From the NCBI GenBank assembly GCA_028277845.1, contig JANQFL010000037.1, positions 1 through 37,042 of the forward strand: a stretch of 37,042 nt of DNA, written 5' to 3'. Positions 19,927-22,687 of this stretch are shown here, piece by piece (position 1 is the first letter of the stretch; the number at the start of each line of letters is the position of its first letter). The notes beneath the pieces are model-generated. The model was not told the DNA's origin. It ran no database searches and saw only the letters and a list, made by a program, of their open reading frames with translations. Source of the DNA: Sneathiellales bacterium (GTDB lineage: Bacteria > Pseudomonadota > Alphaproteobacteria > JANQFL01). A program made the position numbers and the translations under genes.

Positions 19927-19956
19927 AAAAGAGGCCGCCGGGCGAACCCGGCGGCC
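19927..19956 (-). terminator. Minus-strand intrinsic terminator upstream of metY (possible attenuator)
   Basis: Bases 19931-19942 and 19945-19956 hold a long GC-rich inverted repeat, GAGGCCGCC pairing with GGCGGCCTC around a tip that reads GGG-TTCG-CCC on the minus strand. TTTT follows on the minus strand (AAAA at 19927-19930). The UUCG tip indicates that the minus strand is the functional RNA. It ends any transcript that begins in 19960-20050, 140 bp before the metY start. Confidence 0.75.
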
Positions 19957-19999
19957 TCTTCATGACAAGCCTCAACCTGTGAACTCGTTCTCGTTTTCC

Positions 20000-20050: not shown

Positions 20051-20080
20051 AAAAAAACGAGCCGCCAAAATGGCGGCTCG
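20051..20080 (-). terminator. Strong orphan terminator on the minus strand
   Basis: A 10-bp perfect stem (20058-20067 with 20071-20080) has a 3-base loop, with seven A on the + strand directly before it (seven U in a minus-strand RNA). No T-run exists on the + side, so it is one-directional. The closest minus-strand gene (DUF1192) stops at 20461, too far to be its obvious terminator. Confidence 0.85.
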
Positions 20081-20147
20081 AGTTCAACAGGGAGGCGTCA
20101 AACAGATGGATGAAATCCAACCGGATGATCGTGTCAGGACCATCGAA
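20051..20147 (-). ncRNA. Candidate small RNA (~95 nt) driven by a CtrA-like promoter
   Basis: The minus strand between a promoter-like CtrA box and a strong orphan terminator shows an sRNA-like layout. Hairpin 1 is GATGGTC/GATCATC with a 7-base loop (7 bp, one G-U). Hairpin 2 is TGGAT/ATCCA with a TTC loop. A presumably unpaired stretch containing GCCTCCCT (anti-Shine-Dalgarno type) follows, then the terminator hairpin CGAGCCGCCA/TGGCGGCTCG and seven T. No plausible coding frame lies here on the minus strand and the nearest upstream gene ends 310 bp away. The 5' end (~20147) is estimated from the -10-like CATAAC. No known RNA family is recognised. Confidence 0.45.
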
Positions 20148-20153
20148 TGCTAC

Positions 20154-20183
20154 GTTATGGAAAAATGGTTAACAAAAGGTTAA
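20154..20183 (-). promoter_or_regulatory. CtrA-type binding site overlapping a promoter
   Basis: TTAA-N7-TTAA occurs at 20169-20183; read on the minus strand it is TTAACCTTTTGTTAACCAT, which also contains the TTAACCAT form of the CtrA site. Taking the first TTAACC as -35, CATAAC lies 18 bases downstream (20159-20154). More GTTAAC half-sites lie at 20045 and 20211. The rest of 20184-20460 is AT-rich and holds nothing I can identify. Confidence 0.5.
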
Positions 20184-20460
20184 CAGCAAAGAACTGGAAT
20201 GTAAATCGTGGTTAACATCCCTGAACCCGATAATTAGCACCAAGAAATCCTTAGAATTGTGGGAATTTCGTGCAAATCCCTCGCCAAGTAGCCGGGTCGA
20301 ATCAACACTGGCAAGCATCACCCATTTTGATGATTTTGTGCCGAATAGCTTTGATTATCCGGTTTTACTCAGTGAATCGCGAAATATTAAACCAGCAGCT
20401 TCTATTGACTGGCAATCAATCAGGTTTAGGCCGACATTTAGTTGCACGGTTTGTCCCCAG

Positions 20461-20643
20461 TTAGAGCTTGAAGACGGAATCCGCGTCTCCTCGGGCTTTT
20501 TGCTTCGAAACAATCATTTCTTCCGCCCGCACGATTTCCGCCTTCAGGGCCGTAATGCGGTCTTCCAGCTCTTCGACGGACATTTCGTCCAGCTTGATTG
20601 CCATGGGGACGGCGGGTGGTGGCGCAATATCGTCTGTATCCAT
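20461..20643 (-). CDS. DUF1192 small coiled-coil protein
   Basis: A 60-residue protein (start ATG at 20643, MDTDDIAPPPAVPMAIKLDEMS). The pattern MSVEELEDRITALKAEIVRAE is the hallmark of the alphaproteobacterial DUF1192 family: a short proline-bearing start, one long amphipathic coiled-coil helix, and a hydrophobic end DADSVFKL. Function is unknown. It is divergent from the quinone oxidoreductase gene, a neighbourhood I recall as common for this family. A longer in-frame start (20700) exists but family members begin near 20643. Confidence 0.85.
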   Translation of the reverse strand: MDTDDIAPPPAVPMAIKLDEMSVEELEDRITALKAEIVRAEEMIVSKQKARGDADSVFKL

Positions 20644-20750: not shown

Positions 20751-21776
20751 GTGTCTGAAAGCTCGTCGTCCCGTACCGCGCCGTTACCCACATCCATGCA
20801 ATGTGTCGAAATCACCCAGCCGGGCGGGCCGGACGTTTTGGTCCCGGCGGAACGGCCCTTGCCGCAGCTCCAGGACGGCGAAGCGCTGATCCGCGTTGCC
20901 GCGGCCGGCGTCAACCGGCCCGACATCGTTCAGCGCCAAGGCAGCTACCCCCCGCCGCCCGGCGTCTCCGATCTGCCGGGCCTGGAAGTGGCGGGCGAAA
21001 TCGTTGCCGTGCACGGTGATACGGAAGGATTTTCGGTCGGCGACACGGTCTGCGCCCTGGTCGCCGGCGGCGGCTACGCCGAATACTGTGCGGCACCGGC
21101 CAAACAATGCCTGCCCGTTCCCGAAGGCTTCTCGATGGTGCAGGCGGCGGCACTGCCCGAGACCTACTTCACGGTGTGGACCAACGTTTTCCAGCGCGGC
21201 CGCTTGCAACCGGACGAGATACTCCTGGTGCATGGCGGCGCCAGCGGCATCGGCACCACGGCCGTGCAAATCGCCTCCGCCTTGGGTAGCCGGGTGTTTG
21301 CCACCGCCGGCACCGCGGACAAGTGCCGGGCCGTCGAGGAACTGGGGGCCGAGCGGGCGATCAATTACCGCGAGGAGGATTTCGTCGCCGTCGTGCAGGA
21401 CGCGACCGACAAGCATGGCGCGGACGTCATCCTGGACATGGTGGGCGGGGATTATCTGGCCCGCAACATGGCCGTGGCGGCGGTGGAAGGGCGGATCGTC
21501 AACATCGCCTTCCTGCACGGCCCCAAGATCGAAACCAACTTCATGCCCTTGATACTGAAGCGGCTGACGTGGACCGGTTCGACCCTTCGGCCCCGCACGG
21601 TCGAGCAAAAGGCCATCATTACCCGGGAACTGCTGGATACCGTCTGGCCGTTGCTGAACCAGGGCCGGATCGCTCCGGTGATCGACAAGGTTCTGCCCCT
21701 GGCCCAGGCCAGTGACGCCCATGCCTACCTGGAGGCCGGCGAGCATGTCGGCAAAGTCGTTCTAACCGTCAACTGA
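20751..21776 (+). CDS. NAD(P)H quinone oxidoreductase, PIG3-like MDR family
   Basis: A 341-residue medium-chain reductase without zinc ligands. The catalytic domain has GVNRPDIVQRQGSYPPPPG and LPGLEVAGEIVAVG-like LEVAGEIVAV; the Rossmann motif is HGGASGIGTTAVQIA; further on are VFATAGTADKC and DVILDMVGGDYLARN. These fit the PIG3 (TP53I3-like) quinone oxidoreductase family, which reduces quinones with NADPH. The start GTG at 20751 has GGAG upstream; ATG 20796 lacks a ribosome site. The 107-bp gap to the divergent DUF1192 gene must hold both promoters. Confidence 0.9.
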   Translation: MSESSSSRTAPLPTSMQCVEITQPGGPDVLVPAERPLPQLQDGEALIRVAAAGVNRPDIVQRQGSYPPPPGVSDLPGLEVAGEIVAVHGDTEGFSVGDTVCALVAGGGYAEYCAAPAKQCLPVPEGFSMVQAAALPETYFTVWTNVFQRGRLQPDEILLVHGGASGIGTTAVQIASALGSRVFATAGTADKCRAVEELGAERAINYREEDFVAVVQDATDKHGADVILDMVGGDYLARNMAVAAVEGRIVNIAFLHGPKIETNFMPLILKRLTWTGSTLRPRTVEQKAIITRELLDTVWPLLNQGRIAPVIDKVLPLAQASDAHAYLEAGEHVGKVVLTVN

Positions 21777-21916: not shown

Positions 21917-22687
21917 ATGACGTTACCCTTGATGCCCAAGGCGACGGCCGTATGGCTGGTCGAAAACACGTCCCTGACATTCGATCAGATTGCCGATTTT
22001 TGCGGCCTTCACGCTCTGGAAGTACAGGGGATCGCCGACGGCGAAGTGGCGATCGGAATGGTCGGCCTGGATCCCATCGGCAACGGCCAGCTGTCCAAGG
22101 ACGAAATCGAGCGGTGTCAGGCCGACACCAAGGCCCGCCTGGTGCTGCGCAAACCGGCGCTGGAACTGCCGTCCAAACGCAACAAAGGCCCCCGCTACAC
22201 GCCGGTAGCCCGGCGGCAGGACAAACCGGACGCCATTGCCTGGCTGCTCAAGCACGCCTCCGTGTTGAGCGACGCCCAGATCGCCAAGCTCATCGGCACG
22301 ACCAAGAACACCATCAACGCCGTGCGCGAACGGTCCCACTGGAACGCACCGAATATCAAGGCGCGCCATCCCGTGGCGCTCGGCCTGTGTGCCCAGAAGG
22401 ACCTGAACGAGGCGATGGAGAAGGCCGAGGCCCGCGAGGCGTCCCGCAAGAAACGGGAAGCCAAGGGCACCGCGCCGATCGAAGCGCCGCAGAAAACGAC
22501 GCCCGACTATCCCGACGCCAACGATCTGCTGCAAAGCGAGGAGCCGGAAGTGCCGGGCCAGGCGAAGGAGCCCGCCGACGTGTTCAGCGCCTTCTCTTCC
22601 AGTCCGGAACCGAAAAAGCCGGACAGCGACAGCGAAGTCAGCCTCGGTTCGGTTTGGCCCGGCGCCGACAAGGGAACCGACGCGTAG
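21917..22687 (+). CDS. trcR: DUF1013 family cell-cycle regulator (TrcR)
   Basis: A 256-residue DUF1013 protein. The conserved N-terminal part begins MTLPLMPKATAVWLVENTSLTFDQIADFCGLHALEVQGIADGE-like and contains two helix-turn-helix-like units: residues ~18-40, and ASVLSDAQIAKLIGTTKNTINAV (~114-136). The C-terminal ~80 residues are charged and low-complexity, as in relatives. The family is almost restricted to alphaproteobacteria and is annotated as cell cycle transcriptional regulator TrcR; targets here are unknown. GAGGAGAATCG precedes the ATG. A bidirectional terminator follows. Confidence 0.9.
   Translation: MTLPLMPKATAVWLVENTSLTFDQIADFCGLHALEVQGIADGEVAIGMVGLDPIGNGQLSKDEIERCQADTKARLVLRKPALELPSKRNKGPRYTPVARRQDKPDAIAWLLKHASVLSDAQIAKLIGTTKNTINAVRERSHWNAPNIKARHPVALGLCAQKDLNEAMEKAEAREASRKKREAKGTAPIEAPQKTTPDYPDANDLLQSEEPEVPGQAKEPADVFSAFSSSPEPKKPDSDSEVSLGSVWPGADKGTDA

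Follow-up and report, generated by a model that had tools for sequence, protein, structure and literature searches.

CtrA, the master regulator of the cell cycle, is known chiefly for its control of protein genes. Its binding motif is given as TTAA-N7-TTAA (PMC12403871) or TAA-N7-TTAAC (PMC3616915). In the literature consulted, CcnA of Caulobacter crescentus is the one CtrA-driven small RNA (sRNA) studied in depth, and it sets the precedent of an sRNA that depends on CtrA and has a C-rich loop (PMC8959179). EcpR1 of Sinorhizobium meliloti is a broadly conserved alphaproteobacterial trans-sRNA with a cell-cycle connection (PMC4414408), and CCUCC-type loops have been described as anti-Shine-Dalgarno (anti-SD) seeds in alphaproteobacterial/Rhizobiales sRNAs (PMC3927594). 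Closest to the RNA considered here is BjrC1505, a Bradyrhizobium/Rhodopseudomonas sRNA. Its founding paper is reportedly Madhugiri et al. 2012, as cited by others. In the literature searched no paper on BjrC1505 function was found, the family name being met in a table only, and no report tying the family to CtrA was found; Madhugiri et al. 2012 may mention the box. The alphaproteobacterial family is catalogued, its function apparently unstudied, and its probable CtrA connection appears unreported as far as this literature goes.

The window analysed here is the whole stretch of DNA, 37,042 nt long. On its minus strand lies an intergenic gene for a small regulatory RNA of about 95 nt, which we regard as real, its transcript being predicted (Table 1). 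It belongs with near certainty to the BjrC1505 family: the match to Rfam RF02356 scores 57.4 bits against a gathering cutoff of 50 and runs over the full model (1-140) at 20052-20188, promoter included, and a transcript-only covariance model of our own gives the window sRNA 67.6 bits. The BjrC1505 core CUGUUUGACGCCUCCCUGUU is exact in the window and the Rho-independent GCCGC terminator is present. The two 5' hairpins of the family are seen in the MFE structure of the window copy, though as an isolated 48-nt segment 5' of the core they fold weakly (z -1.0). The first-pass annotation had called this sRNA undescribed, which is wrong because the RNA clears the RF02356 cutoff. In difference to the founding members, the window copy lies outside the Bradyrhizobium/Rhodopseudomonas lineage, its SL1 and SL2 have diverged and the genome holds a second copy. 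The 5' part of the RF02356 consensus (alignment positions ~8-22) reads UUuACggccuAUUaa, i.e., TTTA-N7-TTAA. Therefore, the model seems to start in the CtrA-box promoter, counted as RNA, and the 5' third of the family as filed in Rfam would accordingly be promoter and not RNA. The 5' boundary of RF02356, which implies a transcription start before the box, probably needs revision; for Bradyrhizobium USDA 110 a map of transcription start sites is available (PMC4842269).

Table 1. Features of the sRNA locus and its upstream side, in positions of the window.
Feature	Position	Strand	Basis or remark
BjrC1505-family sRNA, predicted ~95 nt	20052..~20146	minus	start deduced, end from terminator
Perfect CtrA full box TTAACCTTTTGTTAA, TTAA-N7-TTAA	20169..20183	minus	predicted ~-38 to -24, overlaps -35 region
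-10-like hexamer CATAAC	20154..20159	minus	direct reading
Second, imperfect CtrA-like box TTAACCACGATTTAC	20201..20215	minus	1 mismatch to TTAA-N7-TTAA
SL1, 5' hairpin of sRNA	20124..20144	minus	MFE; SL1-type hairpins in most homologues
SL2, second hairpin	20104..20122	minus	MFE; compensatory changes in homologues
Conserved core TTTGACGCCTCCCTGTT incl. CCUCCC anti-Shine-Dalgarno segment	20087..20103	minus	exact core match
Rho-independent terminator	20051..20080	minus	10-bp stem 20080-20058, 8 G-C pairs, then seven T
DUF1192 small protein, upstream neighbour	20461..20640	minus	PF06698, E 6.4e-16
PIG3-family quinone oxidoreductase, divergent neighbour	20751..21776	plus	TIGR02824, E 8e-149
TrcR cell-cycle transcriptional regulator	21917..22687	plus	PF06242, E = 7.6e-63

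Read on the minus strand from 20230 to 20040, the locus shows TTAACCTTTTGTTAACCAT, then CATAAC, then about 95 bases that close with CGAGCCGCCATTTTGGCGGCTCG-TTTTTTT. The second half-site of the perfect box runs on to TTAACCAT (20183-20169), and the spacing from the first TTAACC to CATAAC is exactly 18 nt, so that box and hexamer are present just as had been claimed from direct reading. No other perfect TTAA-N7-TTAA occurs in the window, where 0.03 are expected from shuffles; the imperfect box further upstream is on its own at chance level, the window expectation being 1.3 matches at one mismatch or less. By its predicted position the full box covers the -35 region of the BjrC1505 locus, as in members of the CtrA regulon, and judged by established promoter anatomy its position, the spacing and the -10 are what would be expected of a CtrA-activated promoter. 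The transcribed part agrees with its first description as well, with two 5' hairpins and a U-tailed terminator. The segment 20150-20052 folds with an MFE of -36.3 kcal/mol (z = -4.5), and none of 200 shuffles was equally stable. The CCTCCC segment had been described as unpaired; in the MFE structure it is indeed exposed in a loop, but a weak stem closes this loop and it is not fully unstructured. As claimed, the list of open reading frames of at least 60 aa has none that crosses the element on the minus strand, and the window contains no tRNA. The statement that no upstream gene is nearby does not hold, as the same-strand DUF1192 gene ends ~310 nt upstream of the predicted start.

To avoid circularity, relatives were searched with a promoter-blind pattern, the 17-nt RNA core, over named genomes; the matches listed are a sample. 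They were pooled with loci from an RF02356 survey, whose model includes the promoter but which supplied only ~15 of the 124 usable homologues (terminator plus 130 nt upstream) among the matches listed. Core-scan and RF02356-survey loci together hold the exact core at at least 134 places, its invariance in these sets being by construction since the core was the search pattern. A terminator follows in 129 of the 134 listed; the five cores that lack it come from records of Clostridium, Bacteroides, Lentisphaerae, Chitinophagaceae and Clostridiales. The box TT[A/T]A-N7-TTA[A/G] has a nearly constant place, starting 90 to 60 nt before the core, in 110 of the 124 homologues among the matches listed and is perfect in 57; by kinship these are not independent events, Bradyrhizobium and Mesorhizobium being heavily represented, and the set also takes in Sneathiella, Devosia, Roseibium, Hyphomicrobium and others. 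Dinucleotide-shuffled upstreams of the same 124 gave 0.5 relaxed boxes (maximum 3) and 0.1 perfect ones.

A second survey, with the transcript-only covariance model, returned matches in 61 of 387 class genomes. Among scorable matches of at least 50 bits the box was found in 24 of 30, compared with none of 756 flank windows; several of the others have it at one mismatch. Tandem sRNA copies ~200 nt apart were seen at two loci (L183, G366:C6; L184, G209:C10), each copy with its own perfect TTAA-N7-TTAA where upstream sequence exists. When 92 dereplicated promoters were aligned on the box, a TATTAC-like -10 appeared with T-A-T at +26 to +28 from the box start, whereas the N7 spacer was variable (0.07-0.46 bits at positions 5 to 10). 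The invariance of the half-sites in this alignment is partly due to selection; the -10 peak was not selected for and fits a box over the -35 region. Conservation in relatives, the lack of which the first-pass annotation had named as part of a refutation, is thus found class-wide, and BjrC1505 promoters across the class almost always have a CtrA box. Therefore, the CtrA network very likely includes this family as an RNA arm.

The genome of the window adds to this picture. It carries a second, diverged and weaker copy of the sRNA (C110:66803-66925, 41.8 bits), which has core and terminator in common with the window copy, differs in its 5' hairpin (z -8.3) and bears the perfect box TTAACCATCTTTTAA in its promoter. 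This genome was the single return when its own family and order were searched. CtrA is encoded in it (79% identity, 347.6 bits, with a C. crescentus CtrA as the query), and a perfect box lies upstream of this ctrA, 41 nt before the ATG. In the whole genome (5.39 Mb) there are 45 perfect TTAA-N7-TTAA sites compared with 48 of the reversed control pattern, and the motif is therefore not enriched genome-wide; two of the 45 are the sRNA promoters and one is in the ctrA upstream region. With the box in the 110 of 124 listed homologues, in the second copy and in the tandem copies, and with the same box before ctrA, the earlier proposal that the sRNA is CtrA-regulated is strongly supported, and control by CtrA appears very likely on these promoter sequences.

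The fold of the RNA is conserved along with its promoter. The 48 nt 5' of the core have z below -2 in 61 of 68 dereplicated homologues, and the alignment of homologues shows compensatory changes in the terminator stem. The full MAFFT alignment misaligned SL1 and SL2, its automatic consensus showing the core stem and terminator only; therefore SL2 was counted on a fixed-register subset. In these 35 homologues sharing one register, compensatory changes occur in five of the six pairs. The covariation of SL2 is 0.356 compared with 0.149 in shuffles (0/500 as high) and collapses when the register is slid, while the 96% pairing is inflated since the subset was picked for pairing. The window copy deviates from this register by one base. 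What computation shows is that the RNA belongs to the family, how it folds and that the box is conserved along with it.

On its upstream side the window has the commonest arrangement around the sRNA. The divergent PIG3 oxidoreductase is upstream in 53 of 88 homologous genome_contigs loci, DUF1192 in 26 of 88 (by tblastn, a count that is likely too low because the protein is short), and TrcR is found at a distance of up to 4 kb in 26 of 67 such loci. The cell-cycle regulator gene trcR that had been noticed nearby is confirmed in the window by its Pfam match. The downstream side allows for another explanation, namely that the RNA is the 5' leader of metY, with the promoter driving metY and the terminator acting as an attenuator or riboswitch expression platform. 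metY is indeed on the same strand, starts ~265 nt downstream of the sRNA terminator, and is also downstream in the Sneathiella-like relatives (L006-L008). However, apart from these three and duplicates of them metY was not seen to adjoin the sRNA; none of 69 homologous genome_contigs loci has it downstream, although core, terminator and box are conserved, so the sRNA is not a metY leader. In addition, no methionine-related riboswitch was matched in Rfam even at E up to 1, and no match to the metY query is found near the second copy in the genome. On synteny and the lack of a methionine-related match we rejected this explanation, which we consider highly improbable. That there is no gene at all, only a terminator and an AT-rich intergenic stretch brought together by chance, is refuted by conservation (the Rfam match, the class-wide homologues, the covariation and the co-conserved box) and has a negligible probability. 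Between the sRNA and metY, at 19927-19958 on the minus strand, the window contains a hairpin that is very strong and rich in G+C, GAGGCCGCCGGGTTCGCCCGGCGGCCTC, with TTTT after it; it is absent from the terminator-scan list and might be an attenuator in the metY leader or a terminator.

The best reading, which we hold with good confidence, is a CtrA-activated, trans-acting anti-SD sRNA of the BjrC1505 family with its own promoter. Phosphorylated CtrA would bind TTAA-N7-TTAA over the -35 region and activate transcription from ~20146, and the RNA would end at the terminator. It would fold into two variable hairpins and present the conserved UUUGACGCCUCCCUGUU core, which could pair with Shine-Dalgarno regions of the GGGAGG type in target mRNAs and block their translation. 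Hfq is probably bound at the 3' U tail, and target protein levels would drop whenever CtrA is active. We infer that CtrA binds the box, that it activates and does not repress, that Hfq is used and that targeting is by anti-SD pairing, and the conserved CCUCCC core makes it plausible that the RNA blocks ribosome sites, as had been proposed.

Candidate targets were sought by complementarity to the core. The own genome contains four exact complements of 12 nt. Two of these belong to the sRNA genes; of the others, one immediately precedes a plausible GTG start, and no start is close to the second. The former, C90:117272-117283 on the minus strand (L221/L272), stands before an ORF that by eye is amidohydrolase-like and is the best single candidate in the own genome. 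With up to one mismatch the own genome has 55 sites. Among these and the exact 11-nt complements in 12 genomes a few are at plausible starts, also those of a sarcosine-oxidase-like ORF (G188) and a secretion-protein-like ORF (G321), both identified by eye. The ctrA gene itself was rejected as a target, its ribosome site offering, by eye, just five pairs in a row. Over 12 genomes no recurrent target gene was found by simple complementarity (11-nt exact sites), and the anti-SD mode is therefore one that we infer.

This result also leaves some room for a different mode of action, e.g., protein binding or RNA sponging, which we regard as rather unlikely. The 17-nt core exceeds what an anti-SD seed needs, but as the search pattern it is invariant by construction; on the other side, CCUCC-type loops are described as anti-SD seeds in sRNAs of these bacteria (PMC3927594), and MmgR, SorX and SorY, which Rfam files as sRNAs, share the same module. 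Less probable still is that a real BjrC1505 sRNA has a box that chiefly serves a factor other than CtrA, or repression by CtrA. The consensus is short and AT-rich, and another regulator could have a similar site. However, the exact N7 spacing, the position over the -35 region and the same perfect box before ctrA in this genome speak for CtrA, which is the described binder of the motif in the class (PMC3616915, PMC12403871).

Among the known sRNAs, SorX (RF02784), SorY (RF02651) and MmgR (suhB, RF00519) share CCUCCCU(G)-RAACU and a GCCGC-type terminator with the window RNA, which scores 32.4, 30.5 and 19.9 bits with their models, all below the gathering cutoffs of 46.6, 111 and 41. In the class survey the MmgR matches (G041, G265, G132) were without box. 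Among the loci, L204, L208 and L209 are MmgR, and L195, L199, L203 and L205 are SorX-like. This suggests that in MmgR, SorX, SorY and BjrC1505 the CCUCCCU-RAACU core and GCCGC-type terminator form a common 3' module under different promoters. Three weak matches (L196, L211, L215; G316, G380, G235) have TGAAGCCTCCCTTTTCC-like cores and a GCGCCGCC terminator; Rfam assigns them to none of BjrC1505, SorX and MmgR, and they may represent one more sRNA family that has this module.

EcpR1 differs from the window RNA in lying by divK-pleD and rpmG, in being stress-induced and in its stringent-response regulon; its seed/loop UCCGCCGCAUCU is absent from 20052-20150, and with the neighbours also different the window RNA was rejected as its orthologue. 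CcnA is nearer in its control, with a CtrA box in the promoter, CtrA-dependent transcription and a C-rich loop that pairs in 5' UTRs. However, it is 182 nt long, lies at the replication origin, has a CCCC loop A and shows no Rfam or positional relation to the window RNA, which neighbours metY, DUF1192, the PIG3 oxidoreductase and TrcR and has a CCUCCC loop; orthology was rejected here as well. In a wider view, for and against which we see about equal weight, BjrC1505 would be an ancient, widespread RNA output of CtrA in Hyphomicrobiales, Sneathiella-type and further lineages, often beside trcR, the PIG3 oxidoreductase and DUF1192, that is activated by CtrA and, once in each cell cycle or in motile cells, silences a set of mRNAs at the ribosome site. 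If true, CtrA would have a post-transcriptional arm with negative effect in bacteria other than Caulobacter. Provided that the box is used, CcnA would be joined by an orphan Rfam family, present across much of the class, as a second and more widely distributed CtrA-dependent RNA.
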